The translations under genes were made by a program, and so were the position numbers. Below the pieces are notes generated by a model that saw only the letters and a list, made by a program, of their open reading frames with translations, made no database searches and was not told the origin of the DNA. From Paramacrobiotus metropolitanus (Eukaryota; Tardigrada; Eutardigrada; Parachela; Macrobiotidae), in contig NW_026570269.1 of NCBI RefSeq assembly GCF_019649055.1, positions 496,001 to 560,000 on the forward strand: 64,000 bases of DNA, read 5' to 3'. Positions within the stretch are counted from its first letter, which is position 1, and every line of letters begins with the position of its first letter. Positions 16,789 through 54,900 of the stretch are shown in pieces.

Positions 16789-18245
16789 TTAAGACGTCAC
16801 AATGTCCTTAGAATCTTCGTCGCAAAATTTCGGTGCATACATCATCCAATCGATCGACCATTCTCGAGGGTCAACCATCTTTGCTCCCATTTTTCGGAAT
16901 GCATTTAGGGATGACTGGTTAGCTTTTTCCACATATACCCATACGATTTCCTGGCCAATGTTTCGAATTTTCAGCGCCGCGTGGTAGCAGACAATGTGGA
17001 ACAATCCGTTGCCGCGGTACTTCTCATGTACGTAACCGGTTCCGAGACTGCCGTCACCAAGACTGTATATAACATATGCCACAGGAACATCGCTACCCTC
17101 TTCGAATACTGCAGCGCTAGGAAAGTTGGAACAGAGCAGAAACTGGAAGTAGGGAAGCATCGCAGCCGAGCCATACTTCCACTCTGAACACAACTGTTCG
17201 GCATGGTGTTCCGACAGTTCCCCTAACACGAATCCGGCAGGCAGCGGTCTGCACAACACGCAAAAAATTATTTTACTGGAAACTAAAAGTCAAAGAAATC
17301 CGACTGAATTCGAACAATATGACAAAGGTTTCGTTACGTTACGCACAAGATATGGCGTGCAACACGCCGCCCGTTACAATACAAACAACCGCCACCGTGT
17401 GCACTGTTAACGTACCGTAAAATCATTTCCGCAGGATCTAATGTGAACGCCACACAGTATGCGTCATCGTGATTTTCGGAAATTGTTCCTTTGACTGCGC
17501 CTATGCGCTCCACAATTGGACATATCGTCTTCGGGATGCCTATACAACAGTTTAATAACTCCTATACAACAGTTTTTATTTGATTTCCTACTACGGAGCT
17601 AAAATATTAAAATTCACTACTTCCCACCTACAAAAATAAGCTCAGTGCTCCAGTCAACACAATCAGCCAACATCTCTGCTAATACTGCGTCATCTTTCGA
17701 AAGCAGGGTAATGCCTGGCACGCTCGCGCGTCCCACGAATTCCTGCAAACAGAACAAGTTAGCTGCACAACAATGACTGCAACAGAACAACAAAAAATAA
17801 GTGCGCCGTCAGCGCCCTGGCATAACAGAGAGCCGTACCTTCGAGTTCTTGATCACACGACAGATAATAACTCTGTAATCTGGAAACTGATCGGCCACGA
17901 ACTCAACACCAGGCCATGCACAGATTCCCGATAAATGATTCCTGACCATGGCTTCAATCTGCAGAGCGAAAAACGAACAATGAAGATGACAGTGAACTCA
18001 GCTCAGTATTACTGGTGTTTACCGTACTCCTGTATTAAGTTTATAAATAACGTTCAAAAATTAACTTAGGAAAACCAAATATCAACAAAAGAGGCGTACG
18101 AAAGTAGTAAGACTGTGCGTCAGTACTAGCGGCCCAGCAATATTATCGTATCTGGGATATCTCTTACCTGTAATGACTTCGGGTGGAATGATCTAAGCGT
18201 TGGAAGAACCTGGGTAAGTTGTTCAGCGTTCAGAGTAACTGACAT
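16789..18245 (-). CDS. glycine N-acyltransferase-like (GLYAT family) protein
   Basis: Five exons join cleanly: 18245-18168, 17958-17839, 17742-17628, 17539-17416, 17248-16789 (phases 0, 0, 1, 2), giving about 293 aa, close to the usual 290-300. GLYAT enzymes transfer acyl groups from acyl-CoA to amino acids, usually glycine. The C-terminal exon is the acetyltransferase-like (GNAT) half: VPVAYVIYSLGDGSLGTGYV, HEKYRGNGLFHIV (acyl-CoA loop), and YVEKANQSSLNAFRKMGAK near the end. The N-terminal half has the GLYAT pattern, including GICAWPGVEFVADQFPDY and NHDDAYCVAFTL. No signal peptide is seen; human relatives are mitochondrial or microsomal, and location here is unknown. It is divergent from the UBE2V gene across about 1 kb. 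Substrate cannot be told from sequence. Confidence 0.88.
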
Positions 18246-21554: not shown

Positions 21555-23085
21555 TCAAAATTCCAGTTTCCCGGGCATGTATTTGTCGATAAGCGCCTGA
21601 TAATAAGGCTTAAGTGCCTCAATGTCCGGAAAGCGTTCGCATTTGGTGTAAAGGTCAAACTTGTTGAATTCTCTCACCCATTTGAGCATCTCCATGTCTT
21701 CGGCGTTGCACAGGTGCATGTAGTCCTCGCCGGTATGCCAAGGATAAAAAGAGTGAAAACGGATCATACTGAGGCCTTCCTTGGGCAGCGTAGACTTGTT
21801 GTGCACGAGAACTCGGTACAAGTACTCGTCATGGCCCCATGAGAGTTTAATCTGCTCCAGACCACAGTTCGGCCGGTACATTCCGTATTTTGTGTTGTAC
21901 TTTGGATTGCACCCATCCGGATTATGGTTGAACGTGTCCGAGCGGAATACGATTGAATTGACGAATTCACAACCAACCTGAAAAAGTGCGAAACAATAAT
22001 TACGTGATGAACACACCCGCAGGGCAATGAATAACTAAGCACGTACAAGTAAAGATGCTCTTGATAAAAAATGAACAATGAGCGCAAAATGATAAAAAAT
22101 TAAGTAACAGTGCGGATAAAAAGTCAGTGCGATCATTTGGTTACACAAATGTCGCTTTTGATAAAAATCTTTGATTATCTGCTAGCTAACAGATATTGCT
22201 TAGAGAAGTAATTTTATTGCTCTCTTTAGGAAAATGCATTGCGCGCCAAATGGCCAGGCAAGTACTAGAACAGAGTAGTAGCAGTAAGCAATACGAGCAA
22301 TCAAAGTGAAAAGATATGTATACTGCTTTTCACTGATTCTACTTTTCATAGCAGCCGAATAACTTGAATCCTTATGTAAACAAATCACCACGACCAAATC
22401 TAGTTTTATGAGGGTGCCAAAATTAATACGCACATTCAACCCGTAGGGAATTAAAGCAAGCTAACTAGCTACAATACACCTAGTATTAGCTGCACTTTTT
22501 AGACTTGCAATTAGCGATACTACTACCTTTTCGTCAAATCATCTATTTCAGAATAAGGTTTTTGAAATGAGGATTGTTATTTAATAATTCAGTTTCGTAA
22601 ATGTTGAGACGTTTGTTACTACTAACCACGAAAGTGTCGCCGGTAACGGCCCACTGCGGTTCACCCCAGACCGCCATGACCTTGCCCAGGTCATGGATCA
22701 AGCCGGTGAGATGAAACCAGTCGTGTTCCGGCCATACTGTGCGAATCTGTTCGGCTGTTTGGAAAGCATGAGCGATATTGGGCAGATTGATATCCGGATC
22801 ACTCTCATCCACCATGGCATTCAACAAATCCAGTGCCTCCATAATGGTCATCTTGCAACGGTCGAAGCGACCCCATTCCGCTATCTTTCGCTCCACAAAC
22901 TGCACGGTCTGATGGGTGTGAATGTCCAGGTAGGTTTTCTTTACCCGATCGAAATACTGGTTGGCGGCAGTGTAATCGCGGAATTGCTCGGTTGGCTTGG
23001 CTTCCGGGGTGAACTTCAGCTGAAGGTCACTGTGGATGGGTTCCGGGCGGAATTCGGATGGGTCATCGAGGATTATTTTGCCCAT
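21555..23085 (-). CDS. MIOX: myo-inositol oxygenase (MIOX)
   Basis: Two exons: 23085-22627 and 21977-21555, phase 0 join (GDTFV|VGCEF), 293 aa versus about 285 in vertebrates. The enzyme cleaves myo-inositol with O2 to D-glucuronate through a mixed-valent di-iron centre, in the cytosol, opening inositol catabolism. All six iron ligands can be seen in context: HAFQTAE, GLIHDLGK (His and Asp), SWGHDEYLY, RFHSFYPWHTG and EFNKFDLY. Substrate-site blocks MVDESDPD and GEPQWAV are intact. The ATG at 23085 gives MGKIILDDP and is the first Met giving a family-like length; 12 extra in-frame codons upstream start with ACG and were not used. Intron 22626-21978 is 649 bp. Confidence 0.97.
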
Positions 23086-23171
23086 TTCAATGCAAAATAT
23101 TAAGCAAGTTGCAGACGTCAACTTATACGATGTAAAGTGGTAAAACGATTTGCAGTTAAATGATTTTTCAG

Positions 23172-24321
23172 ACGGAACTGAGCGTGAAAGTACTTATGGA
23201 GGCGATGCTGCCGTTGCTGCCGTTAATGATGGATCGACGAACAATCGCCCGATGTGTGCTATCGTCGAACAATCTGAAGGACTTGACCGTGATAAAAATT
23301 TGTTGGCAGAGCGTTTGCACGTATTGGGAACTATGGTAAGATCTTGGCTAGAGATAAATCAGGTTGACTTTATGCGTGGTCACAAGGTTTATATATAGCT
23401 AATTGTAAATGAAATGGCTGTTATGTACTTTCGGAGCATTATAAAAGAATTGTGCTTCCAAAAACAGTGAAATAAACATAATCTTAAATCTTGATTTGTT
23501 CCCATAAATACAGTAATAACACGGAAAGTTATGAGACTATCACATGAGCCGTTTTGTAATCTTTCTTAATTCCTACGAAACTTGTGCGTTATGCGCGAGT
23601 AACATATTTGTACTTAATACGGTTCTAAAATCAAGTTTGCTTTTTTAGTGAAACATGGGTTTCGGAAATATTATGAGTATCTCGAGATACATTTGTGGAG
23701 TTTAAATCCCCCTTTTTTTCTCATTGGTGAAATGACTGTTTTCACCGAAATATTGAGTCGTCGATCATAAAACTGAAAGAAGAATTGGAAACCAAGTTTC
23801 CTTTATAATGCATACTGGCCGTGTACAGTATTTACTTCAAGGTGAATAGTTGTCCCGGTTTGGTTTCGTTCAATTATACTGTACAGTGTGGTTTTTCGAA
23901 AACTGAAATTTAATACGGGTTTGTTGCTGTACCATATTCGGACCAGCGATCAAGTGTGAACCTGTTTAAAACCGACCAGCGACTCCGGTTTACTTCCAGG
24001 GCGCAGTTACAAAACCGACAAAATTTATTTTTTTCGCGGTGACCTATTCTGCAGCAACAAAAATTACTGTTGTATATTGTGTATTAATATGTTTCTTTTT
24101 TCTTCTGCCAGCTGTTTGTTTTCGTGAGATAAGGTTGAAAAGCATTACGTAATCATCTTTTTCGCCTCTTACAAATTTGTAGTATCGACACATGCTTACT
24201 GCTCATTTCGAATTCTGGTATGACCACGTAATTTAAGTACGATTTGCAGGAAATAACGAGCGATCCCTTCATCGATCGATCAGCTGGATCTCAGAAAAGC
24301 CTACGATACACATGCACCTGA
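23172..24321 (+). CDS. unassigned exon pair of a possible small gene
   Basis: An exon at 23172-23335 has a strong acceptor (TGATTTTTCAG) and donor (ATG|GTAAGA). Its most protein-like frame is acidic (DGTERESTYGGDAAVAAVND, ending RLHVLGTM). A second exon at 24250-24321 follows an acceptor GATTTGCAG in matching phase 0 and reads EITSDPFIDRSAGSQ before a stop. No upstream exon was found: only 86 bp separate the first acceptor from the MIOX start codon, so an upstream exon would have to lie inside MIOX, or translation begins at the internal MCAIVEQ. The same 164 bp is also open in a second frame. No family recognised. Confidence 0.3.
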
Positions 24322-24704: not shown

Positions 24705-26240
24705 ATGCCGCGCCAGGTGACAGAAATGGATTCGCTGAATTTTGTGGTATTTTTGGGCAGTTCGCGCGAAGGACGCATGGCCACACGTGTCGGTAAATAT
24801 ATTCGACGACTGCTGGAAGAACGAAATCACAACATCACTATTATCGGTAAGACATTAGCAATCTGCCGTACTGCAATACAGCTTCCGACCTTTATTTATG
24901 TACTTCAGATTACCCAATGCATATTGTGCAATGTGCACCCCAGCTAAAAGCGTATGAACGATGCATATCAATAGTATTAAGGCAAAAAACTTCGTTTTCT
25001 GAGAATTAAGTTTCTGTTTCTTACTGGTTGCGGTCACCGCATTGACCAGGAGACTGCAACAGGAAAGCTGAATAAATATGCACTGGAAGTGGGGCTATAC
25101 CGAATCATTAACCAATCGATAGATGTAATTGTTTACGCTGTGGCATAAGTGTTGTGAAAATATGCTAAGTATATGTTCAACATATTCATTACATTTCTCA
25201 GTGCTTATGTACTGTAGATCCTCTGGATGTCGGTTTGGGCCAGGTGATCTCGCCCTTAGCGTTCATGCCCGATCCCAGCGAAGCTCCAGCCAATGTGTTA
25301 GAAATCAATAAGCAAATACAAGAAGCGGATGGATTTATCATTATTTCACCCGAGTACAATGCCACTTTGCCGCCTGCCTTGTGCAGTATGATGGATAATA
25401 TTCCACCGGTATCCTTCGCATACCGCCCGTCAGCTATTGTCACGTACTCTCTCGGTAGGTGGAATGTGGAAAGGAAGCATTGGCACACCGCGTATTTGAA
25501 TTAAAAAATTTCTGAATACAGCATTTTTTGTATGCTTAATATCCATAAATTTTCTTGACAACTAAATTTGGATTACGTGATCTATCTGTAGAAGTAAATT
25601 TGTACCTTTTACTACTATTTATATTTTTCTGTAATATCAGATAATATCTAACCTGACGTACCTTGTTGCATTGTCTTCTAAATGTTTATTTCTTTTGATA
25701 CATATATTTTGCCAGACTTAACCGTTGTGCATTGTGTAATTTAATTAAGTGGTTTTACAGTATTATTTTTACAGGGAATTTTGGTGGGATGCGCGCCGGG
25801 TCTCACCTGCGCCAGTTCTTGTCCGATCTGACCACCATATCCTTGCCCCATATATTCAGTAATACATTAATCAGGGCTGCTGTTTTTTTAATCTTTTAAT
25901 TGATCTTTACCAATGCTGCTCGGGTGAATGTTGCAGTGATTCCTATGGTGGAGCAAGTTTTGAACGAAAACGGCGAAGTGTTGTCCAGACGCACCAGAAT
26001 GCAGAAAATGTCCACGATTTTATTCAATCAGCTGGAATGGTACTCCCGTGCGCTCAAGAATGAAAAGCTGGTAATATATTCTTTATTTTAAACTAAGCGC
26101 AAGTTTTTTTGCGGTTCCTGAGAATCACCCGCGCAAGTTTTTTTTCTTCCTGAGAATCACCCGCGCAATGAGCACAATATTATTTATGGAGCTGTTTTTA
26201 GGAGCTGGGAATTCCAGCGCCAAGCGGAATTGGCCTATAA
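24705..26240 (+). CDS. NADPH-dependent FMN-reductase-like flavoprotein
   Basis: Five exons: 24705-24846, 25218-25454, 25775-25858, 25937-26070, 26202-26240 (phases 1, 1, 1, 0), 211 aa, normal for the family. These flavodoxin-fold enzymes bind FMN and reduce flavin, quinones or azo compounds with NAD(P)H. Visible motifs: FVVFLGSSREGR (phosphate loop after the first strand), PLDVGLG, ADGFIIISPEYNATLPPALC (the SPEYN flavin-contact signature) and GNFGGMRAGSHLRQFLSDL. The end of exon 3 (LPHIF) joins MIPMVEQVLNENGEV. The start ATG at 24705 is preceded by in-frame ACG. No signal peptide, so probably cytosolic. Related genes are commonest in bacteria and fungi, but four introns show that this copy is a resident eukaryotic gene. 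A 33-bp duplication lies in the last intron. Confidence 0.9.
26097..26167. repeat. 33-bp direct tandem duplication in an intron
   Basis: GCGCAAG, a run of T, then TCCTGAGAATCACCC occurs twice back to back, followed by a third GCGCAA. The copies differ only in length and sequence of the T-run junction. It lies in intron 4 of the FMN-reductase-like gene. Confidence 0.8.
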
Positions 26241-26516: not shown

Positions 26517-28061
26517 TTATTTAAAAATCCATGGAAAGGTCTGTTGGAGGGAGAAGACGATTTGGTCGTAAAGGTCACCGAGTGGCTACAAAATTAAGTC
26601 GTATAATAGGATGCTTGCGGCAAGTCGTAGTTTTCTGTAATCAAACATTACGAAAATGTGCATAGCATCTACCTCTTTGAAAGGTCCCAAAAACGCCAGC
26701 AGGTTAACAGCAGCCGCCTCCGTGATGGTGCTGCCCAGCGAGGCCAAATTATCGACGATGGTTTGAGCGATCGTTTGAACGAAGTAGATGCTTAAAGCGC
26801 TGTCGGGCTGAACATACAGAAAGACATTTAGCAATTTAGCATGATAAAAACTTCGAGGATAGCTTGTTCGAATCACGGGATAGCGACAATACTTTATATA
26901 AATATTTTATTTTCGCCGAATATGTGAGTGCATTGCGTCATGCGATCCGACGTCTTACCATAATCGTGGCAGCAAGTGTAGCTAGATTGTTAATAATCCA
27001 GGTTGGTCCACCGGTAATCACATCGGCAATCCAGCCCAGAAGACCGCGGCTCTATCAAAACCCAAAGCAAAATCAATTAATATAAAAGTTAGCAGTAATT
27101 TTATACGGTTTCGTGAAAATCTGATTTTAATAACTTTCTTCAGTTCGGCTTTTGTTTGCTTTTGTACGTTATTGAAAGCTGATATGTGATATGCAAGAGG
27201 TACAACTTATTACTAACATTTGCCTGCATGTTACCGTACTTATATCTAACAAAATGCAAACAAATAAACGGGTAAATACAATAACTATACCCTAGTCGTT
27301 TACCTGAAGATCGACCATTCGTGCAGAAACAGCATTAAACATGCTCATCCGGGTGAAATCAATGGCAATGTTTTTTGCTTTGTCCAGTGCAACTTGGGCG
27401 TGAGCGTTAAGTTCTAAAAGAATCAAACGAAGGTGTATTTGCAGCAATATACCTGTAGAACACGCCAAAATCTTAGTGGCAAACCCTTAATTTTTGGCAT
27501 CAGGCCGATGACTTCTTCCGCAACCAGGGCAGCATAGTTGATTTTTTCCATTGGCGGGTCTAAATACGGAATCTCATGACGGATGTTCAGGCTTACCGTA
27601 CATATACTCAAACTTTTGAGCGTTTTTCGACAATTTTGTCTGTACGTACTGCGCAGAGGCTCAGTGGCTTTGTGGAGCATGGCGTTAGCTTCTTGGGTCA
27701 TCTTTTCATATTCCTGCACATAGTTCTCAAAAAGTTGCACCCGTTTATTGCCTTCTTCGTCCACCAGAGCCGCTACGAATTCGGCGACTTTGTTGTTGTC
27801 CGACCGGGCATCGGTGTTAAATGCCTGATAGACTTCCTGGCGCATTTCCAAAAGGGCATCTTTCAGCACAGGCTTCAGCGCTACAACTCACAATCGTGTC
27901 ATCACCAGCATGCCAAAAAACGCAGGTTCTGACAAAAGTAATTTACAGTACTCGTACAGGATTAAGAATAATAATACAATTTGTATACCTCCGGAGAAGT
28001 ACGCTTCCCCCAGGCCGGCGCAGGCGATGACAAAAAGGGCGATGGCAAGAATAGACTTCAT
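26517..28061 (-). CDS. secreted helical protein, local family member 1 (261 aa)
   Basis: Seven exons in phase: 28061-27989, 27880-27650, 27559-27485, 27413-27304, 27051-26959, 26807-26673, 26585-26517. It starts with a clear signal peptide (MKSILAIALFVIACAGLGEA). The mature chain is amphipathic and probably helical: LKDALLEMRQEVYQAF, VQLFENYVQEYEKMTQEANA, LDKAKNIAIDFTRMS. A later exon begins SRGLLGWIADVI, parallel to SRGLFGDIWNGV in the 638-aa gene at 36-38 kb. The C-terminus is PWIFK. It lacks the two-Cys module of the other two genes. Intron 3 is only 71 bp. The donor after KIK (AAGG|GTTTGC) is the least certain join; it is chosen because it keeps the frame. Family and function unrecognised. 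Possible roles such as lipid- or surface-binding extracellular protein are speculation. Confidence 0.82.
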
Positions 28062-28780
28062 TTTTTTAAATTTCGGGAACGCCGTGACCTGAGCTCAGTT
28101 TGCCCTTGGAAGTGTGCTAATGAGATAGTGGCAGCTGATTTGTAAACCAATTTTTGCCTTAGAACTGCCGGTTGGTACAATAATCGTCTGATTTCCAGTG
28201 AGCTAATCATATCAAACCAATAAAATTAATAATAGCACGTGAAATGATAACCTTGGATTGTAATAATCGCACTAAATTTGCCGCAGATAGTAGAAAAGCT
28301 TACCGCCAACATTAAAGCAAGGATAACAATTCGATCATAAATGCTTTTGATGAGATCGCTGCGGCACTAAATAGTTTGCTTTACTGATTTATTCGCTAAC
28401 CTGGCCCGTAAATAAAAAATACAATGCTATACCCGTATGAAAGTAATTGCTGAAAATCCATCAATTTTAGGCTTATTTACAATAAAATTTACGCAAATCC
28501 CAGTGTGGAATTTTTGTAGTGAGTTGGTCATCTCAAAACTGCAGCGGAAGTGTCGCAAAGGCGCGTTTTAGGGACTTCCGGTATGTTTTTACGGGATGAT
28601 ATGCGGACTAATTGCGACTTATATACGGCGCATTTGCGCAACAGAAACCTTTTTTAATGCATTGGTACTGCAGTTCAGGGAAGTACTATAATTTATGGAT
28701 AGTCTGTACCACCATCACCGTACGCAAAGCACACTTTTATTCTCCCTACACAAAAAAAATAGGTTTACCTAAGAACTAAA
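28062..28780. promoter_or_regulatory. upstream region of secreted family member 1
   Basis: Minus-strand upstream sequence contains GTTTGATATGA (28218-28208), which is also found upstream of family member 2, plus a GATA-like site (AATGATAACC near 28242). No coding exon is seen. The assignment as promoter is inferred from position and the shared motif. Confidence 0.35.
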
Positions 28781-28818
28781 AATACCGAACAAAAAATTCT
28801 GAAACGAAGAGCAAGTTT

Positions 28819-31101
28819 GGAAATCCTTTAAATTATTTACCGAAATAAAAACAGAGCACGGCCAAGATCTACTGAAAATTTTTATAGATTCTGGAGGTTG
28901 CAAACAGACACGGATATCCAAATTAAACCATCGAAAACAATCCTCTTCCAGCGATTTTTTCAGTCCCCGAAATCCGGCGCAGCCTCTTTCCCAGAATTTT
29001 CCATAAAATCTAAAATTAAATAAATCATGAGAAATGCTAACTCAACGTAAGTACTTATCACAAACGGATTTTTATTCTTCCTCTAACATTTTCAATCAGG
29101 AAATTTGGGAAATCCAAGAACAATTTTTGAATCGTAGCGATGATAGCGCTCCTATTTTGCGAGCTTGCATCGGACCCAGAAGAATGTTGCGCGCTGTATA
29201 GCACACTGCTTTTAAAATCATGATCTTATTTTAAATTAAATTAAAAATAACCATAATAACCATAAATTATTTATTTGATAAACCTTAAAATCATCGCAAG
29301 GGAAACAATTTTCTAAAATTTGTTCTTACATTGTGCTGCCGTACGATCGTTTTAGAAATCTTCTTGGAAGTCCGAGTATTTTCAGGCAAACTTCGTCCTG
29401 CAAACGGCAAAAGCACATAAATACACACGACTTATTTTTTTTATTTATCATTTGTGGATTTCTAAGAGCTTTGAAGCAATTTGCTAACGTAGCAACTGAA
29501 GAAATAAGCATCCCTACACTGATTGCACCCTTTTCAGCGTCAGCTAATAAAAACACTATAAAAAGCACTGTAATAAGATCAATCACTATAAAAATCTGGA
29601 AATCCAAACTTAACATGAATTTAATCGCTATGTGACTTGTGACGGCGTTTGCTGTTTGCGTATAAAACCTGCAAAAAGAATACGTGCATAAATAAAAAAA
29701 TTTTAAAATGTCTGTAACTAAAATTCAAAATCTGCAAGTTCTCTGTGGTTAAATTATCCAACCACAGAAAACTTATAATTTTATTTTCTATTCACAACCA
29801 GATTTTTTAGAAAAAATTATTTTGCGTACCTCAAGTTGCTCCACTGTTAAATCATCTCTTAAGTATTATGGATATCCAAGAGTCACTCAGATATTTTTCT
29901 GCAACATGAGCAAATGCAAACGAATAACACTAAGCATCTCTCGCGCGTCTACCGTTCATTAATCACTAAGATTCCGGAATTCCAAAATTTACGTTTTAAA
30001 AAAACACATAAACTGGAACGCAAAGAAGCTTACCGTTTGAGGAGTAGACAGGTTACTGCTGCCACTTCAAACCACAACAGTGTGGAGGCACTGGAGCGCA
30101 GGCGCTTGACGTTTGCTGGCATTAGCAAAACTGGCGCCACCTATGAAAGAATGAACAATATTTCGAAATATTGTTGCAGACTTCGTATAACTTTTAAAAA
30201 CACGGAGTAACACTGTTTTCATTCCCGTAATAACTTACCCGTAAGGGACGTTTCTTTTTCACTGTGCGTAGGCTGAAAGACTTGGAAATCCGTGTTGTCG
30301 AAAGCACCTGCAAAGTACGATTCATGTTTAAAGTGTTGTTCTACTGCCTTATTAAAATAACTGTTTTAAAAAACCCAACGTTTTGAAAAGAAAATCCTGA
30401 ATAAGTGTGAAATATTTTGGAGACCTGCAAAATGGCGGACGTAGCTAAAAAGTTCAAAACTGATCAACTGACTTAAACCTTGCAACGGCAGCTGCTTGTT
30501 CACTGACATTGCCAGTGAACAGAAATGAACGAGCTGAAATATGCTTGACCAATCAAAAAAAGAGGGTGGTCTCCGCATGAAACTGCCTAATTTCACATAC
30601 GTAGTTATTCATAATTTCACTGAATGTGCAATTGTTTTGCAAAAATAAACAAAACATTTATTCTAAACACTTAGAAAAATTAAAATAAATTTTCCAGTAT
30701 GAGGTTTAACCGATAACAATTAGTATAGTCAGTTTTACCTGATGGCAATCGTCCGGGTTAAAGAAAATTGAGTCAGCAGTTTAACGTAGTTCCTGGAAAT
30801 CCAAGTTTTTTCCCAAATGAATGATTGGCAGAGTTATATGGTAAGTGGATCATCATGAAGCACAAAGTCAGAGGAAGTGAAAGGAAGAATGACGATGTTG
30901 GAAAAGGCTCGTCATGGTGCTAGCTCGCGCGCAAACCTGAGCGCGCGTACATGCGTCTGGCTATGAGAACTACTACTTGCTCTTGGATACCATAACAAGG
31001 CTTTGTTTTTCACGAGTTCTACATCGTGGTCTTTCAAAAAAGCCCTAATATTATAAATATAACCCGCAAACGGTTTTTGTATAACAAATACTGGGAAATC
31101 C
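28819..31101. promoter_or_regulatory. cluster of GGAAATCC / GGATATCC near-palindromes
   Basis: Six exact GGAAATCC at 28819, 29108, 29598, 30284, 30795 and 31094, all in the same orientation, two palindromic GGATATCC at 28912 and 29870, and one variant GGAAGTCC at 29366. Several extend to TGGAAATCCAA, a dyad with TTGGA/TCCAA arms. Flanks are not otherwise alike, so it is a dispersed short motif, not a long repeat. It may be a clustered protein-binding site; alternatively it is the remnant of repeated exons reading LDF[PQ] on the minus strand. Confidence 0.4.
29333..30307 (-). CDS. weak candidate multi-exon membrane-protein gene
   Basis: Three minus-strand exons fit in phase: 30307-30239 (acceptor TTTGCAG, donor CGG|GTAAGT), 30140-30034 (acceptor TTCATAG, donor CG|GTAAGC) and one starting at 29668 (acceptor TTTTTGCAG) that stays open to about 29333. 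The middle exon contains STLLWFEVAAVTCLLLKR, and the third has FIVIDLITVLFIVFLLADAE and ISVGMLISSVATL, which look like membrane segments. A following short exon (29400-29333, donor AAT|GTAAGA) and one near 29010-28775 could continue it. No start or stop is fixed and no family is recognised. It could be a real gene fragment, a pseudogene or chance. Confidence 0.28.
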
Positions 31102-31606
31102 AACAATATTAATCGAATTCTACAAGGCCATAAAAATGCAGAAAACCTCCTGTAAATTATCGGTTTTAAAATGGCATTTTGCAGAACTCAAAATTTTACT
31201 TGCGGATTCAATGTTGGTATACTGCTGTCGCCACAGGGCGGACGCAATGCTTTTGTGCGGGATATATGTTCATAATTTTGCACCGAAACGAACTGCGACT
31301 GTGAACCGCATACTGTAATATACATGCTATAGGCATTTCAAGGGAGAGTTACTACAAACATAGATTTATCTGGCCCCAGATTTCTTGTCAGGCGTGGTTT
31401 TAGCCGTTAACCAAGGCCATACTCGCACAATAAAACAAATTCACAATAGTCACATAACAAAGGGCATCAGATTTTCCAGTTTTGTGACATATGGTGTATA
31501 TTTCAGTCCAACTAGTCAAGTGACCTTCGATCACAAAACCCAGTACGTATTCGATTCATCAAATGTATTGCAATAATCAGAGTGTTAGAAGAATTTCGAA
31601 TCCTAG
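30366..31606. other. no supported gene
   Basis: A 76-codon minus-strand frame at 30366-30596 has an AG at its start and CAG|GTCTCC at its end and might be a further exon of the candidate membrane gene, but its phase does not fit the 30239-30307 exon as read there. The rest shows nothing beyond the GGAAATCC motifs. Confidence 0.4.
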
Positions 31607-33632
31607 CTAGTGCTTCTTGTTTTTCAACTTCGAGTCAAGTTGTCCAGAAAATAAGGTATTCAGTTGGGTAGTGATCTGCTGGATGAGTGTGGGGAAATAC
31701 TGCAAAGACAACGTAAAGTTAAAGTTTAGGCAATTCAGCGCACAATAACTTCAATGGAATTTTTTTCACACTGTTGATGCTATCAGCATTTTCAGATACA
31801 GTTACCGACCACATACAGTTGTGCATCTGAGACAATAAACCAGAGATTTCATGAAGTACCCGTAAGCCGTAGGTACTAGGTATATTATATAACCAAGCGT
31901 ACCTGCTGCAGTGGTTTTAAAAACTCCACAAATTCATCCACCACCAAATGTAGGACGTCGTTGAGCTGGCCAATCGTTTCGTGAATAAAGTTTTGAATGA
32001 CGGTTTCCACCTGTGCAAACTGACTGGCAATAGCCGGTAACAGAGCGGTCTTGGTGTCGATCAGATGGATCGGGATATCCAGAAGATCAACAAAGCGGGT
32101 TTTCTAAGCAAAAACGGTTATTATAAAGACAGTTAGTTAAGTGTTAGCCACAAAAAGCACTGCCGCCTTTAATTTTATTGGTGTTGTACAACATTAAGCA
32201 AATATGCAGCTGACAAACCTACCGGGCGACTGAGTAACCACTGGTTAACCTGGCTGCCAAGGTCATGACCCAAATGCTCCAGAACCGCCTGTGTCACCGC
32301 TTCCGTGGCGCTGAGTTGGCCGGCAATGGTCCACGCCCATCCAACAACCGGCGACGTCTGGACGTAATTCTGCATGCCACCGTTGGCCGTCAAGCAGTCC
32401 TGCACCATGGGCAGATACAGGAAGTCCAGTGCTTGATTGTTCTCCATCAGACCGATGACCAGGGCGGTGTTGCACTCAATGCCGTGCACCTCGATGCACT
32501 GCACGACGGGATCTTGTGCTACAAGTCCCTGGAACTGCGCGGATGACGTCAGCGCATTGATGACTAGCTGAATCAACCATGGAATTCGTGCGCTGCCATC
32601 TCGGCTCACTGCAAAGTTAATATTTATTATTCCACCGCACACCATGCAGAAAGATAAAATTAAGCACGGAGCTCTGTTTAGGCAACTGTAGACTGACCTT
32701 TCGAATTGGACAAAGTGGTTAGTAACTGCTGGAGGATTGCTTCTCCATATTGGAAAATATTGTCGCCCAGACCTAGAGAATAACAGGACATGCTGGCAGT
32801 AATGTTCTCATTATTGATTAAAATTATCACGTGCAAAAAAAGCCACTAGTAAGAGTGTCGCTCTAATATGTTTTTCTACTTGCCGTTAAATTCGAGTTAT
32901 ACTGCAATTCAGTATTCACCATTTTTACCGTACCTTGCAAGGCGATCAGCGCATGTTGGACGACTGTGTAAATATATTCAGCATATTGTTGTGATAATGC
33001 GGCAGTCTGCTGGAGAAACTGCAAGATGCTTTCAGCGTTATTTTGCAGAATCTGTGCGATGTCGGTTACGGCTCCCGATCTAAACATTTAGATACTGAAT
33101 ACAAGTTATTACAATTAATGCATTCCTGTTGTAAAAAATGTTCTCTTAAAACCGAAACGAAATAATTATTGGACTACTGTGCAATTTCAATTAATTAATG
33201 CATCAGTAACTGACTGGTGCACAGTGCACAACCAAAAATTATTCACTGGCAAATCTTAGTTATTTTCATTCCAGAAAGTAAACGATTTGAGTTAATCTTC
33301 TGGAATCTGAACCGTTACGCAGATGAAGATTGTCCTTCGTGTATTAGTAAGCAGTCCACGCACCTGGTATCTAAGCCGGACGCTTGCACCGGAAACAGTT
33401 TTCTTGACTTGCTTATGGCAGCATGCAGAGGAGATGATGCACCTGTATCCCAAAGCAGTTGAAGTGCTTTCGATTGCATAGTGGCAATTATTGTACAAGT
33501 ATACAAACTGTAAATGCAATAAATTAAAGGTGTTACGTAAGCAAGTAACTCACGCTGGGAAAGGTTAGGAAGTTCTCCACCAGCCGCAATGTACACCAGC
33601 GCAAACACACAAAGCAGGCTTAGGGTTTTCAT
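31607..33632 (-). CDS. secreted helical protein, local family member 2 (352 aa, one two-Cys module)
   Basis: Seven exons in phase: 33632-33554, 33442-33364, 33079-32934, 32772-32698, 32608-32223, 32103-31903, 31699-31607. The N-terminus is a signal peptide (MKTLSLLCVFALVYIAAGG). Exon 3 is a helical segment (ILQNNAESILQFLQQTAALS). Exon 5 (128 codons) is the module shared with the 638-aa gene: GSARIPWLIQLVINAL aligns with GRAIPAFLKPIIQQIA, MENNQALDF with SQNNQLNAD, and VQDCLTANGGMQNYV with IAHCIEQGGGLESIV. Two cysteines, QC...DC, are spaced 33 residues apart (34 in the relative), with an extra Cys (IEC) between. Exon 6 begins after LLSRP and is again helical; the C-terminus is Lys-rich (SKLKNKKH). 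No known domain recognised. It lies upstream of member 1 and is divergent from member 3. Confidence 0.85.
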
Positions 33633-35863
33633 TTTTTACTGTTTGTAATTTCAACTTTTCTTTTTTCAGTGTTACTGTACACTGCCTACTCTAGTCATAT
33701 CAAACTAGCTACTCTCATATCAACAACAGCCTTCGCTCCAGTAAAACTAATTACGTTCGAGAAAACTTCCGATCCTGTTTGTTATCCAAATGGAGATAAC
33801 CTTATCACAACCTTTTGTTAAGAAAGCGCAGTGCATCTTTGCATTACGGATTGCGCATAAAATATTATCAGTTAATCAGTTTTAAAGCGTCAATAGTGTT
33901 GCCGTTAGCTTGTTACTCAACATTAGTGGCGCTGCTTAAATGAACAAATTTCTTATAATTGTAGTTTTACGTATAGCGTCAGTTATGGCAATCTGTTAAA
34001 TTATCCTACTTTTACGATATTCATATCTGATACGTAGGTATTACCGTAATCAATCGACCACATTGAGGATGGTTTGGTTAATTTGGAAAAACAGCGCATT
34101 TTACCAGTTTTCATAAAGCAATCCCCTCTAAAAATAACAAGAATCTAAATGTTTCTACACCAATAATGCTTTGAAACAAAATTCTTCCTAATTGCATCCA
34201 AACAGAACCAGCGCCCCGATTAAGACCGGCAAGTGGTTTATTATTTGTATATAAGCACAACTGCGATAAATGGAGTTGTGTTACTTGTTAGAGACCTATA
34301 CGTATGAAAAACCAAACTGAAACACTGGTAATTAAACAAATACCAAACTGTAAATTTATTGGAGCAAATAAACGCCATTTCAGCGAAGCCCCACCGGAAA
34401 TATGAAGTACTGTATGCAGTATTAAGTACCGTACCAATGGGTACAACAAACAACCGTTCCATCTTGGATCGAAGATGTTCAAAGACGACAGAAACAGCAA
34501 TGAGTTGTAAATTTCTAATGAGTTGCAATTCTGTCCACATCTGTTGTTGACTGTAAATCTTGATCTGTAATCATAGAGAAATTTACTCGACAGTGGGTCG
34601 GATCCCTTTCGATGTAAACAATTTCGCTTTCCGTACGTTTTTAAAAACAGACATCGTTTTCCGCTTACAGATATGCATTGCATGTCATTCTGCCCTTAAT
34701 CGACATCAACCAAATCTTGTCGGTCTGAAATTGTTGTCGGTTCACGAAAGAAAAAAATAGCACAAATCTTTCTCAAACGATTTGGAAATCTAGAAAGTTT
34801 TCATGAATATCTGCAATCTCTATAATTATGATACGAGTATATCTCTCAAGAACGTCTTTTTCGGAGCGGACAATAGGGTGTGCCGCAGCCCATTCTTTTT
34901 TATGCACTTGGTAAGGCAATCATGATATGGATTTAGTACTGTACATGCCGAAAAATATTTATCGGTAGTCTATGCAATGCCTGTGACACTGACAAGCCGA
35001 AAATTTTAAAAATTTATTTACAAACACCGATCGTTGTAGCTGCCGTATGGCAACTTTGTAGTAGAATCAATCATGAGCTTAATGATCATAGTGTCCTATC
35101 CTCTCAGGATTTGTTGTAACTGTGCAAAGTTCACTTCCACCTTTGCACTATGATTCTCCTCCTCATCACACACCAAAACGTCCGTAAACGCAATTTACAA
35201 GGATGTTAGTTTTACACAAAACATGTGAATCATCAAATTTTACTATAATTTGCCGCTGCGTATTTTACTCGTTTCACGAAGTGTGCAGGTACAGTATTTT
35301 CTAATCGGCAGTAGAATTCACGGTTCATGTCCTCCCATTATCACACCATACGCGGCTGACAATATTGCCCGCTGTTATTCCAAAATCCAAATTCGCTTGT
35401 GCATTCCCCAGAATAAACTGATAAATATGCAGATATCAGTATCGTTTAATTCAACAGATACGGTAGAAATACATTGATAAAACAATCAGACCATAAAAAG
35501 ATTTAAAGGTGTATACCGCCTTCCGTTTTTCGTATGCTTACATTAAATGGCACATAGCATGCAAGTGTATATGTATTACAATGAACCGTAGTCCAAAGTT
35601 CTTACTTTCTTAAAAAGATTGCGCTTAAAAATCAGCCATAAATATGCTTACATATCGGAATCTGTCGATAAAACATTTATCGGAAACAGGTAAAATTATA
35701 CTACGATACCAATTGTTTTCGCGTGACCATTGTTCTACATTGATAAGGTCAAGAAGTTGGCCATCGAAATATATAAGCAACCGGAAAGAAAGTTAGACAA
35801 CAAGCTTTCAGCGAGTCAACAAGTTTTCTAAAACAGTTTTTAAGATTTCCTGCAAAGGTCACC
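33633..35863. promoter_or_regulatory. divergent upstream region of secreted family members 2 and 3
   Basis: 2.2 kb between the two start codons. On the minus strand, GTTTGATATGA lies at 33705-33695, 63 bp before the start of member 2, and a paired GATA site (TGATAAGGTTATCT) at 33807-33794. On the plus strand, TTGATAAGG near 35739 and a TATATAAG box near 35770 precede member 3; its start at 35864 has an ACCATG context. Frames at 34241-34760 show no domain and no splice partners. Confidence 0.5.
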
Positions 35864-38120
35864 ATGAAGGTCCTGATTGTTCTCGCTTTGGCTCTGACCG
35901 CTGCGAATGCCGGATTTTCTGGCTTTCGGCAGCAGGCCCAGCCAGTTGTCCAGCAGGCCATCAACAAGGTCCGTGCTGACTTGGCCGCCAAAGCTCCAGC
36001 TCGCAGCTCGTAAGTTTAAATACTCTAAAGCTTTAAACGCGTACGGCAGCATGCATCACTTTAAAGAGCATTTTTCAAAAAGCATTTTGAAAGTATTTTC
36101 GATTTGCTATTTTAAAATCATATTAATAGCAATAACAAACACGATTTACATAATGAGATAAAATACACTGACCAAAATAGAAGAATAAATAGCATGAAAA
36201 CTTTGAATATTATTCTTACAGTGCCGAAGTGTCCTTTCAAACTGAATTCGTGAACGCTCTGAACAACCACGCCAATGAAATCTTGAACCAGATCGACAAT
36301 ACCGTCGATGCCGTCAACGCCCTGGCACAGGGCGTTGTCAGCCAGTTCCACGCAGCTGTGTCCCAGCTCCAAGCTCTGGGCCAGAGCGCCGTGGAAAGTG
36401 GCCAAGCCATCATTGGCAACCTCGTCAGCGGCTTGTTTGGCAGTCTTTGTAAGCAGTTTTCCTCTCAGTCACATAGTTCGTTCGCTCTTGACAGTTCAAT
36501 TCCCTTGCAGTCGGTAAGGACCGCAGTGGACGTGCAATTCCAGCATTCTTGAAGCCCATCATTCAGCAGATCGCCACCAACCCGCAGTTCGTCTCGATGG
36601 TGCACAACAGCGACTCCTACAAGTGCCTCAAAGAGAACGGTCTGACTGTGACCTTTGAATGGGTGCAACAGCTGAGCCAGAACAACCAGCTGAACGCTGA
36701 CCTTCTGGACGATCCCGTCATCGCTCACTGCATCGAACAGGGTGGCGGTCTCGAAAGCATCGTCGCTGGATCGCAGATCATTGACTTCGTTGAGGCCATT
36801 GTGGAGCCACTGGGACTTAGCGCCCTGATCGACCAGACTATCATCAGTGTCCTTGGTGAAGAATTAGGAAGCGCGATCATTGCCGCTATTAATGTAATAC
36901 AACCGCTTTGTTGTTGGTTCAATCAGTCAGTACATTCATGGGGCAACTATTTACTTTAGAGTCGTGGACTTTTCGGTGACATCTGGAATGGTGTTTCCAA
37001 TGCTGCCGTGAATATTTGGGACGGTGTCAGTGGAGCCGCTGTCAACGCCTGGAACAACCTGAGCCAGGGCGTCATTAATGTCGGCCAGTACATTGCTACC
37101 TTGGCAACCGAGACCTTCAACTCCGCTGCGGAGAAATTCGAAATCATCAAGCAGCTGGCAGTTGCCTTCCTCCAGGGTGCCATCACCACGGCCCACTTTG
37201 CCACCCAACAGGCGGCCCAGGAATTCATCAACTACCTGTCGGAGTTCGCTTCCGATCTGGGTCACCTTTACGACAATGTGGTCAACCAGCTGACGGCCAT
37301 CTGGGACGGTCTGTACATTCCTACCTGGACTTCCCGTCAGGCTGCCCGCAGTGCCCGTGCTATTCCCGCTTATCTTAAACCCATCGTCCAGCAAGTCGCC
37401 ACCAACCCGCAGTTCGTTGCGTTGGTCCATGCCAGCTCTTCTTATAAGTGCCTGAAAGAGAACGGTTTGACTGTCACCTTTGAATGGGTGCAACACCTAA
37501 GCCAGAACAACCAGCTGAACGCTGACCTTTTGAACGATCCCGTCATCGCTCACTGCCTTGATCAGGCTGGTGGTCTCGAGAATGTCATCGCTGGATCGCA
37601 GATCATCGACTGGGTCCAAAACTTCCTTAAACCTTTTGGTTTGACCGGTGCCATCCACAACATCATCTTAGAAGTCCTTGGTCAGGAACTCGGAAGCGTT
37701 GTCATCAACGCCATGAATAGCCGACATGCAGGACGCAGCGCCCGGGCCATCCCTGCCTACCTCAAGCCCATCGTCCAGCAAATTGCTACCAACCCACAGT
37801 TTGTCGCTTTGGTGCATGCCAGCTCTTCTTACAAGTGCCTGAAGGAGAATGGTTTGACTGTCACCTTTGAATGGGTGCAACACCTGAGCCAGAACAACCA
37901 GCTGAACGCTGACCTTTTGAACGACCCCGTAATCGCTCACTGCCTTGATCAGGCTGGTGGTCTCGAGAATGTCATCGCTGGATCGCAGATCATCGACTGG
38001 GTCCAAAACTTCCTTAAACCTTTTGGTTTGACCAGTGCCATCCACAACATCATCTTAGAAGTCCTCGGTCAGGAACTCGGAAGCGTTGTCATTAATGCCA
38101 TGAACAGCCGCCGCGTTTAA
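35864..38120 (+). CDS. secreted helical repeat protein, local family member 3 (638 aa, three two-Cys modules)
   Basis: Four exons in phase: 35864-36009, 36222-36448, 36511-36893, 36960-38120. Signal peptide MKVLIVLALALTAANAG. Then an Ala/Gln/Val-rich helical stretch (LNQIDNTVDAVNALAQGVVS). Module A fills exon 3: GRAIPAFLKPIIQQIATNPQ, YKCLKENGLTVTFEWVQ, LSQNNQLNADLLDDPVIAHC, then a hydrophobic end (LGEELGSAIIAAIN). Exon 4 opens SRGLFGDIWNGV, followed by an amphipathic region (NNLSQGVINVGQYIATLATE), then modules B and C starting at SARAIPAYLKP, exactly 129 codons apart. B and C differ at only two residues over about 120. Each module has Cys in YKCLKENG and in IAHC[IL][ED]Q, 34 residues apart, probably a disulphide. 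Codon use in exons 2-4 is GC-richer than the surroundings, as for a highly expressed gene. Function unknown; not a family I recognise. Confidence 0.9.
37350..38117 (+). repeat. tandem 387-bp coding duplication (modules B and C)
   Basis: The segment from 37350 recurs from 37737. The last 230 bp of each copy differ at roughly six, mostly silent, positions, while the first 100 bp differ at many more silent sites. The proteins are almost identical. The uneven divergence suggests a partial, recent conversion or unequal crossing-over event. Confidence 0.9.
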
Positions 38121-51900: not shown

Positions 51901-54900
51901 AAGAGGTACGAGTAAGCGCACAAGCGATTCATTGGAATTAGATCTAGCTTTTTCAGTTTTATTTGTTGGAGCGAAAGACAAAATCATTTGTTTTTAATCA
52001 GTTACTGAGAAACCTGTGTGTCTTTTATGCATAAATTAATTGCTCTTCTTAATTTTAACTTAATTATTTGCAATACACCGTTTCTTTGATCTCTGAATTA
52101 GCAGCATTTTGTGATGAAGCAAATTTATTACCAACTGCTAAAAAAGCCGATGAAATGAGCTTTGAAATCGTTGTGGATCATTTTTAAGAATGTATAAAAT
52201 AGTAGTAGCGTCAAAAATTTGATGAGGGTGAATTATTCGTAAACATGCTACGATTTTAAAGATTTATAACTGTTTGACATTCATTACTGGGCAATTTTCT
52301 GCATTTAAATGGTCACGCGAGTACTTCCTACGATAAGAATTGATTAATTAGTTGGTGAAGTAGGCGTTGTGAAGCGCGCGCAAGTTTTTTCAAAGTATTT
52401 CATGCGGTGAAGATGTAATATGTAAAAAATAGATGTTAACTGGTTTCGTTTTCATTTTACAGTATGTTACCGATGTTCACTCTACACAGGACGAGATGGC
52501 TGGCTCCATGATGGAAAAGGATGCCGGTGGAAAAATCACCCGTCGGTTCCAGTGCAATGAATGCGGCCGTCTGTTGAGCACGTCCACTTCTCTGGAACGA
52601 CACATGCTGACTCACAGCGGCCAACGCCCGTTTCCTTGCCCTCTGTGCCCCATCTGCTTCACTACAAACGGCAACCTCTTACGTCACCTGAAGAGTTGTC
52701 ACGACGCACACGGCTCCGAGTCCAGTCTTTCCAAAATGGATCCCACAGCGAAGGATCTGCGCCCAGCAAAAAGTCCAGTCAGCTTACGAATGCCTAATTC
52801 ACTGGTAAATGCACTGGCTACTAAACGCGACATCTTACCAAAAAGCGCGATGAACGATGAGCTGACCCGGGACAGCCACAACCAAGTGGGCAGTGAGACG
52901 GAGTTTCCCGATGCGACCAAGTATAAGCCGTTCCTGTGCACGCTCTGCGACAAAGTCTTCAGCACGAGAACCAACTGCGAACGCCACATCCGTAATCGGC
53001 ATTCGGATAAGACGTATTCCCGACAGGTAGAGTGTGTCATATACTCTTTTGTAATAATTTAAGAATTTTAAAGCACATGGTCAAAACTTAGATGATTTTC
53101 GTTAAAATTATTATTAGCACTAACCTCTGCAAAGTAGCAAGGTGGCACCAGTGCCGTACTGTCAACCGGTGTCTTTAATATGCTTTCTTCGGTTGGCGGT
53201 ACATTCGGTAACAATACTTACTAGTTACTGTAGTGTTTTTTGTATACAGCACATATTCGTATTAATTTTTAATTGACTTCAAGTCGGCTTCCAGTAATTG
53301 ATTACCTGAAATGAGCTTCTAAGTCAAGTCCAAAAAGTCAGCTTGGATGTCCCAGCAGTTTAAAAATTTTGACTTTTATGGAAACAGAGTCAAAAGTCAA
53401 GTCAAGCTACTGTTTACTAATTCAAGTTTTTGGCATCCCTACCAACAGGAGCTGGTCAAGCTGATTAAGTTCATCCCGAAGAACGCAGCGGATAGCCATG
53501 CAGTATGCAAGTACTGTAAAAAAGATTACGTTTCCAGTAAGATGCTGAAACACCACTTGCGCTCACCATACTCCAGCTGCCGACGGAAACCGTTTGCTTG
53601 CAAACTCTGTGAGGTGCGTCAAATAACCACTCTAAGCAACCATATTCGCAAACTCCAGAAATTTCATTTTAAACTTTAATTATTACGAGCGCATTATTCT
53701 TCCCGATCTTCTCGAACTGATATCATTATTCCAGCAAGTAAGAACATCCGGAAGTTACAACTCCTACTTAGTTTGCTGTCACGTAGCTTGTACCTATTTT
53801 ACAACAGGTACGGTACAGAGAATTTTTAAATTTGTTAACCACCTTGAGATTTGCTGCATATCTGTAGTTCTGATGGTTGGTTAAAGCTCGGAACCTTTCC
53901 AACAATGGAAATCGTACAAATTAATATAAATTTCGATTCATTGCAAATTGTTTGATTCTTCTGGATTCAAGGAATCAGTAGTGAACGGTCTAAAATCTAG
54001 AACGCTCACTACTGAGTACTCTGTACTTCTAATTTCTTCAAATTTGAGTACGAGTATTGTCTTCGCTGTTTTTGCACATTTTTTCAACTCATGAACCCAT
54101 CCAGTAAAAGATACGTATCTCAAAAAAATTTTAAATATGAGTAATACGTATGTAATATAAAATTTCTGAACTTAATTTTTTTCAAAATTAATTTTTTCAA
54201 AATTTTGAGTGAAAATTCGGGACATGTTTTTCGGAAGAAACAAGAATAAGATTCGGAAGAACGACTTCTTACGCGAACATAAAGCTTTGCCATTAGCGTT
54301 TTAAAATCTCACCTTTTCGTTCTCAGACAGAAATATTCATTTCAGTATTGAGTCAACAGCAAAATCACGATTCCATGTTCCAGGATAGTACCAAGTATCA
54401 CAATTTCGTCTCTGGATCTGCAAATTTGCACGAACTCGTCGAATCGCTCGTGTGAAAGTTTGTCCGACTTTGTTTGCAAAGACATTTCCAATATCAGCTA
54501 TTCAAAAATTCAGTCGCAAGAGATTAATTTACCAATAGCCAACGAACATGCATTAAACTTTCACAAACTGACAGTAACACTCCATTTAGACTGATTCAGT
54601 CATTAGTGATTCATAAAATTAATGGAAATACAAAAAGCGGGGTATAGCAGATAATTTAAGCAGATATAGGAATGATGATGAGACTTGTTTACTTGCGAGC
54701 CTGAAGCCTGCTAAGGTCACGGATAGTCGCCAGCCAGGCAGATTGCTCCCGCCCGTTAAGTAATACTGTTCAAAATCAAGAATATACGAGTTTCACTAAC
54801 AAGCCACGACAATAATAACTGATCCCGAGGACCCGAAGAAACAAAACAGAAAAATTTGCTTGGCTTTTCATTTTTTGAGAAACCGAAACTCCGAAAGCAG

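Follow-up and report, generated by a model that had tools for sequence, protein, structure and literature searches.

An 11.6 kb cluster of three genes in the genome of Paramacrobiotus metropolitanus, each beginning with an apparent signal peptide and none containing a domain above the Pfam cut-offs, raises the question of what such proteins are and what they might do. The cluster lies at positions 26517-38120 of the 64,000 nt stretch that was analysed (the window; G000:C49:496001-560000, in whose positions coordinates are given), these limits being the exact stop codons of the outer genes, m1 and m3, between which lies m2. The trio and at least four further loci constitute one family in this genome, with members built from domains termed A, C2 and B in the order A-(C2)-B. 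We lean, tentatively, towards seeing in it a small family of surface-active proteins that tardigrades secrete and that act at lipid surfaces; it would share the physics of apolipoproteins without belonging to their family.

Domain composition and common descent

The exons of m1 and m3 join into clean reading frames through GT-AG introns, with a single weak donor, GTTTGC, after exon 3 of m1 (after 27485). The m2 frame is clean apart from an ambiguous join of exons 1 and 2, where one acceptor is out of frame and another, 8 bases downstream, fits. The m2 and m3 genes are divergent, with start codons 2.2 kb apart. Each of the three proteins begins with M-K followed by a hydrophobic core, and signal-peptide-like N termini, called by eye without a prediction program, are present in all five sequences compared (m1, m2, m3 and the family proteins of C29 and C146, described below); F[S/T]G directly follows the hydrophobic core in four of these, the exception being m2.

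Further members were sought in the 169.8-Mb, 533-contig assembly using m3 exon 4, m1, m2, the C29 protein and pieces of the C146 protein as queries; the best candidates only were scored in each search, so the family size is a minimum. C29 (L022) harbours two family genes facing each other, with 90% DNA identity across 1232 columns. Their amino acid identity drops from 99.3% in exon 2 to 93.7% in exon 3, perhaps through partial gene conversion. The C146 gene (L021 1775-5959) consists of 12 exons encoding 862 amino acids, which comprise a signal peptide, an A domain, a linker and seven B domains, with one B core on each of the last seven exons. A C2-bearing exon on C42 has 43% identity to m2 (E = 2.3e-22), though its companion exons were not found, and C219 gave a weak match (E = 1.27). 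As separate observations, a dispersed 93 bp fragment (G000:C12:1402964-1403056; L004) is 95.7% identical to part of m3 exon 4 (37084-37176), and the C146 gene is followed by a 343-codon open frame (L021 6877-7905) that is rich in hydrophobic stretches and by eye resembles a membrane protein.

The family members share common ancestry. Their domain orders are A-C2-B-C2-C2 in m3, A-C2-B in m2 and A plus seven B in the C146 gene, while m1 has a B domain. Against profiles built from m3, C29 and C146 only, the B domain of m1 scored 44.0 bits, the A domain of m2 37.2 bits and the B domain of m2 29.7 bits, values reached by none of 1930, 1999 and 1924 scored shuffles, respectively. A further A domain in the N region of m1 is not supported, as this region scored only 2.1 bits and 184 of 1914 scored shuffles were as high. 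The C2 modules of m2 and m3 are 32% identical (E = 3.8e-11 for this genome), and the SRGL-x-G motif that begins both m1 exon 5 and m3 exon 4, in phase 0 in each case, is the opening of a whole B domain. Exon lengths place the start of every B domain in the cluster in phase 0, and show that the m2 and m3 exons for C2 each run from phase 1 to phase 0; these matching phases support common descent.

The initial annotation had described three multi-exon genes with signal peptides, a two-Cys module common to m2 and m3, the SRGL-x-G exon start common to m1 and m3, and a secreted family expanding locally. Its observations are confirmed, with sequence supporting the kinship and the N termini the predicted secretion, and were understated: m3 holds three C2 modules, m2 has a B domain too, and the genome contains further family loci.

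The annotation had also seen no known domain, in agreement with database searches. No Pfam match of m1-m3 exceeded its cut-off (the lowest E value, 0.0007, was to a domain of unknown function at 19.9 bits against 23.6), and a PDB sequence search with m2, m3 and profiles of C2 and B found nothing better than E = 0.64. The whole C146 protein scored 36.3 bits against the cut-off of 27 for TAFH/NHR1 (PF07531), a nuclear domain, the best stretch covering positions 6-39 of 90; as single B domains fail the cut-off (three of 11 match at E <= 1, the best at 0.027), this score appears to arise from repeats adding up, and membership is unproven. TAFH had no match in m1-m3 or C29. A literature search at the level of titles and abstract openings, with supplements outside its range, found no description of the family among the matches listed, which is a weak negative.

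Periodicity of the A and B domains

On the Fauchere-Pliska scale, hydrophobicity in all nine domains analysed (A of m3, C29, C146 and m2; B of m3, m1, m2, C29 and one C146 copy) peaks at 97.7-99.4 degrees, equivalent to 3.62-3.69 residues per turn, and is coherent across 67-118 residues. Normalised power is 11.5-19.7, in every case above the maximum of the domain's own 300 shuffles (maxima 6.9-10.7, with shuffles scanned in 1-degree steps and real sequences in 0.1-degree steps), whereas the two C2 modules tested, at 4.6 and 3.9, fall within shuffle range. A second scale and method agree, with z of 4.1-6.9 for eight A or B domains, 3.8 for the m1 N region and about 0 for C2. Among non-family open reading frames (ORFs) of at least 90 amino acids in the window, none of 81 reached 11.5 in its best 90 residues, the highest being a myo-inositol oxygenase (MIOX) exon (9.9 at 109 degrees); family ORFs, with which high-scoring antisense frames of m3 were counted, scored 13.9 (two from m3), 11.6 (one from m1) and 7.5 (the C2 ORF of m2) in the same scan. 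A heptad coiled coil was tried as an explanation and rejected, as power at 102.9 degrees (0.6-3.8, versus 9.8-19.4 at 98.2 degrees) is at least five-fold lower in all nine domains.

An 11/3 period (98.2 degrees) outperforms an 18/5 period (100 degrees) by 1.6-4.7 fold in four of the five B domains, those of m3, m1, C29 and C146. The first three 11-mers of the m3 B domain resemble one another, with approximately five of the 11 positions forming a hydrophobic side and the remainder being mostly N, Q, S, T, G, D or E. Such 3-11 helices have been described for apolipoproteins, synucleins and perilipins (PMC6164224, PMC5889406). Since the A and B periodicity lies near that of this class, the proteins probably do not act in a novel way, even should the family itself be novel.

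The closest parallels are partial. Exchangeable apolipoproteins (apoA/E, apoLp-III) likewise combine a signal peptide with long amphipathic stretches of period near 3-11, and a 22-residue proline pattern is a feature of apolipoproteins; the present family differs in having a two-Cys module, and scored only 22.2 bits (C29) against the PF01442 cut-off of 90, with no match in m1-m3 (E <= 1) or C146. The sub-threshold Pfam matches of C29 include Apolipoprotein (1.3e-4), Perilipin (5.3e-4) and ApoLp-III (0.1). Perilipins are intracellular droplet proteins without a signal peptide, unlike this family with its signal-peptide-like N termini, and the best score to PF03036 was 19.6 bits against 33, again in C29 and with no match in m1-m3 or C146. 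Plin4 resembles the family in its gapless 11-residue repeats, as seen in m3 B, and in modest charge (K+R+D+E of 10-20% in the family; 5 charged per 33 residues in Plin4), but lacks the Leu, Ile, Phe and Trp found on the family's hydrophobic face (PMC6164224/PMC5889406).

Several points weigh against lipid-surface helices of this type. Neither the four A domains (9.8-16.2 at 98.2 degrees, 11.0-13.5 at 100 degrees) nor the m2 B domain, peaking at 99.4 degrees, clearly separate 11/3 from 18/5, so that an ordinary amphipathic helix fits these equally well. Eleven-residue periods are also found in hendecad coiled coils and LEA proteins, and weak Pfam matches of amphipathic helices often do not reflect homology; those of C29 also include a baculovirus envelope protein (2.1e-4). 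The net charge of the family proteins is acidic (-9 to -26), and in Plin4 the helix was reported to become cytosolic, and no longer to be seen on droplets, when the net charge of each repeat was shifted from +1 to -1 (PMC6164224/PMC5889406). Helix formation itself is unconfirmed, the predicted models being all helix at low confidence. Of the amphipathic helical chains originally annotated, then, the amphipathic periodicity stands for A and B and is absent from C2, while the helices remain a prediction.

The same periodicity could serve a structural secretion, in which amphipathic helices bundle or form hendecad coiled coils to produce a gel, glue, eggshell or cuticle layer. Eleven-residue repeats suit straight coiled coils too, the seven B domains of C146 exemplify repetitive domain gain, and composition is low in charge (7-12% D+E and 4-8% K+R in five proteins without their first 18 residues) and high in Ala, Leu and Gln. 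However, the hydrophobic face of m3 B is probably wider than would be expected of a two-stranded core, and we consider this alternative doubtful.

A secreted desiccation protectant, as an extracellular analogue of LEA or CAHS proteins, is improbable. It would suit a tardigrade with a SAHS cluster and the amphipathic near-11/3 pattern, and EtAHS, CAHS and LEA proteins share with the family a helix potential and a tardigrade setting. Against it, grand average of hydropathy (GRAVY) is positive throughout when the first 18 residues are removed (m1 +0.07, m2 +0.15, m3 +0.16, C29 +0.23, C146 +0.36), which, together with the low charged content, sets the family apart from LEA, CAHS and EtAHS proteins, described as hydrophilic or disordered (PMC8582207). 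The SAHS proteins, which adopt FABP-like beta folds, are similar in being secreted and multicopy in the same genome. An SAHS1 query gave 24 matches at E <= 1, none of them on C49; they include a tandem SAHS-like cluster (G000:C3:446414-467533; 57% identical across 65 residues in the best match, E = 3.2e-19), whose presence is the basis for regarding the source animal as a eutardigrade. A Kunitz search showed no more than that the genome is an animal's. None of the three cluster genes inspected has a start codon in its first matched exon, and translation probably starts in an exon further upstream.

The two-cysteine module

Alignment of five C2 copies reveals 11 invariant columns, among them Q18, F19, both Cys and five Gly. 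The module is under purifying selection: modules b and c of m3, which form part of a tandem repeat with a 387 bp period, differ by 0.437 synonymous (dS) and 0.010 nonsynonymous (dN) substitutions per site, a dN/dS of 0.024, while module a gives 0.22 against b and 0.15 against c. For the gene copies on C29, dN/dS is 0.15 and 0.23. These low ratios indicate that the family consists of constrained proteins and not chance reading frames, and so strong a constraint on C2 also counts against a structural secretion. Within each module, the half-motifs around the two Cys are alike, the summed half-versus-half scores of four modules being reached by two of 2000 column shuffles; this suggests an internal duplication, although part of the likeness is built in, since each half was defined around its Cys.

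Fast evolution is common among secreted proteins of reproductive or salivary function, and the low dN/dS (0.02-0.23 in the pairs tested) counts against the family being a secretion of this kind evolving through local duplication, which we hold to be quite unlikely. Local duplicates are nevertheless present, as the trio and the C29 inverted pair, and P. metropolitanus genomic bins enriched for male-biased genes, reported in PMC11191345, can be counted for this explanation.

The arrangement of C2 in m3 recalls the nematode polyprotein allergens (NPAs), in which tandem units of ~125 amino acids with two Cys are linked by R-x-x-R. The three C2 modules of m3 are ~122 amino acids long, contain two Cys each and have RSGR or RSAR ahead, and two of them lie in the tandem repeat, as would suit a soluble binder of lipids or fatty acids whose helical units are excised at R-x-x-R and carry small lipids in their core. 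By contrast, the single C2 of m2 has no R-x-x-R ahead, C2 is repeated in m3 only, and we know of no NPA counterpart of the amphipathic A and B domains. PF16469 had no match in m1-m3 (E <= 1) or in C29 and C146 (E <= 10), and a genome search with this model gave no match, but its controls gave none either. We regard an NPA-type binder as rather unlikely.

Wider searches, made for C2 only, yielded no confirmed relatives of it among viral contigs in IMG/VR (53 pattern matches) or prokaryote contigs in GTDB (47). The best Pfam matches of C2, far below the cut-offs, were XPC-binding (0.091; two of five copies) and Ubiquilin-1-like (0.19; one of five). Structure prediction, proposed with the initial annotation, was carried out with AlphaFold2 on C2 module a (four-row alignment) and m3 exon 4 (three-row alignment) and returned all-helix models too weak to be of use, with confidence scores (pLDDT) of 54.4 and 43.5, respectively. 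Foldseek with the low-confidence C2 model gave three matches (best E = 5.8, none at E <= 0.001), and VIA-align of the same model against 22 chains gave a best Z of 3.2, to globins, with a root mean square deviation of 4.1 over 105 residues. No claim regarding fold is based on these models, and a missing match does not equate to a new fold.

Upstream DNA and the role proposed for the family

The DNA upstream of the family genes is enriched for GATA sites. All six genes (m1, m2, m3, C29a, C29b and C146) carry TGATAA or its complement TTATCA in the 200 bp before the start codon, a pattern that none of 20,000 sets reproduced when six background stretches were drawn at random; this hexamer ranks top at 200 and 300 bp and second at 400 bp. 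In the 400 bp upstream there are 29 GATAA/TTATC sites against 5.8 expected, six each in C146, C29a and C29b, and GATAA is the top 5-mer. Their mean was reached by none of 100,000 random sets (background 0.98 per 400 bp), mononucleotide shuffling of this DNA (2000 rounds) gave a mean of 8.8 and a maximum of 21, and a single site falls in the opening 400 bp of the gene bodies of all six. Such GATA-rich DNA suggests expression in gut or storage cells, which also argues against a structural secretion. In C. elegans, TGATAA is over-represented in the promoters of intestinal genes, only a fraction of which are bound by the factor ELT-2 (PMC10411582).

Among control genes, MIOX has two sites and an SLC10-like transporter one, and six small GTPases with a Met in the same frame (20 loci fetched, 13 examined) average 0.67 sites counted from the nearest Met or 1.67 from the first, with single values of 0-4. 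Cathepsin genes partly resemble the family and add to the case for gut or storage cells: ten Inhibitor-I29 cathepsin hits included eight with a signal-peptide-like start, chosen among several for two of them, and these have 3, 1, 4, 3, 0, 2, 0 and 4 sites, the five genes with 2-4 sites, against the background of 0.98, being on contigs C5 and C37. Two cathepsin loci with unclear starts were excluded, their doubtful candidates having 3 and 4 sites. SAHS genes were dropped as controls, as the first matched exon had no start codon in the three genes looked at. TATA-like words precede the start codon by 94 bp in m3, 113 bp in C29a and 116 bp in C29b, with none within 200 bp in m1, m2 or C146.

The argument from upstream DNA is tempered in several respects. 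The GATA-like words had caught the eye before they were put to a test; kinship among the six genes means that their promoters are not independent; counts start from predicted start codons; TGATAA is not enriched at 150 bp; and m1 has only two sites. One control GTPase has four sites counted from the first Met, and three of the eight cathepsins, on contigs C36 and C2, have 0-1.

Table 1. Predicted features of the window, in positions of the 64,000 nt stretch
Feature	Position	Strand	Description
Gene m1	26517..28061	-	261 aa, 7 exons: signal peptide, own N region, B
m1 exons	28061-27989, 27880-27650, 27559-27485, 27413-27304, 27051-26959, 26807-26673, 26585-26517	-
m1 B domain	26517..27051	-	exons 5-7, SRGLLG start, phase 0
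m1 upstream 400 bp	28062..28461	-	2 GATAA/TTATC sites
Gene m2	31607..33632	-	323 aa, 6 exons: signal peptide, A, C2, B
m2 exons	33632-33554, 33071(or 33079)-32934, 32772-32698, 32608-32223, 32103-31903, 31699-31607	-
m2 A domain	32698..33071	-	two exons
m2 C2 module	32223..32608	-	one exon, start phase 1, end phase 0
m2 B domain	31607..32103	-	two exons
m2 upstream 400 bp	33633..34032	-	5 GATAA/TTATC sites
Gene m3	35864..38120	+	638 aa, 4 exons: signal peptide, A, C2, B, C2, C2
m3 exons	35864-36009, 36222-36448, 36511-36893, 36960-38120	+	clean frame, GT-AG introns
m3 A domain	36222..36448	+	39% to C29, E 5.0e-9
m3 C2 module a	36511..36893	+	own exon, start phase 1, end phase 0, like m2
m3 B domain	36960..37325	+	starts SRGLFG in phase 0; 11-residue units without gaps, ten full and one partial
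m3 C2 module b	37359..37724	+
m3 C2 module c	37746..38111	+
m3 upstream 400 bp	35464..35863	+	4 GATAA/TTATC sites
GNAT acetyltransferase	16789-17289	-	neighbouring gene
MIOX	22546-23193	-	neighbouring gene
FMN reductase	25169-25504	+	neighbouring gene
C2H2 zinc fingers	52433-53062	+
C2H2 zinc fingers	56810-57727	+
SLC10-like	58476-61074	-	bile-acid-symporter-like transporter, neighbouring gene

Elsewhere in the window, the sequence GGAAATCC occurs in nine copies against 1.4 expected, a number reached by none of 100 shuffles; six lie between m1 and m2 (28819-31101) on the + strand at spacings of 289-686 bp, with variant copies interspersed. A 32 bp tandem repeat of 2.2 copies is found at 26097-26168, ~350 bp past the m1 stop codon. 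The effective number of codons of m3 (43.4), considered as a sign of high expression, is below that predicted from third-position GC content, but so is that of the neighbouring SLC10-like exon (45.7). Scanning the window for tRNAs and for Rfam families, the latter at the gathering threshold, gave no match.

Under the lipid-surface explanation that we tentatively favour, gut or storage cells would express the genes under the control of a GATA factor and secrete the proteins. The A and B domains would then adsorb as long 3-11-type amphipathic helices onto lipid or another apolar interface, candidates for which are a lipoprotein-like particle, a droplet, the cuticle or the gut lumen; alternatively, they might form soluble folded-back bundles that open on a lipid surface, in the manner of exchangeable apolipoproteins. 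C2 may be a compact module pinned by one disulfide and could supply a second binding site, and m3 may be cut at its RSGR or RSAR sites to release it. The likely job of such proteins would be extracellular lipid handling or surface coating. A more specific scheme, which we regard as doubtful, is that they are the tardigrades' own extracellular lipid carriers, made as polyproteins in gut or storage cells, combining 3-11 helices with a new two-Cys helical module and partial furin-type release, and independent of both apolipoproteins and NPAs.

The original interpretation of the cluster as an undescribed system is partly supported: m1-m3 have no Pfam match above the cut-offs, but the wording was too strong given that the A and B periodicity lies near the apolipoprotein and perilipin class. 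The lineage restriction also put forward there is a conjecture. The exon models, domain borders and promoter motif are predictions that can be checked with RNA-seq. If confirmed, the family would represent an independent origin of apolipoprotein-like physics and, if the role proposed is true, an extracellular lipid or surface-coating system in tardigrades, animals whose secreted proteins figure, among the papers listed, mostly in connection with protection against drying and stress.

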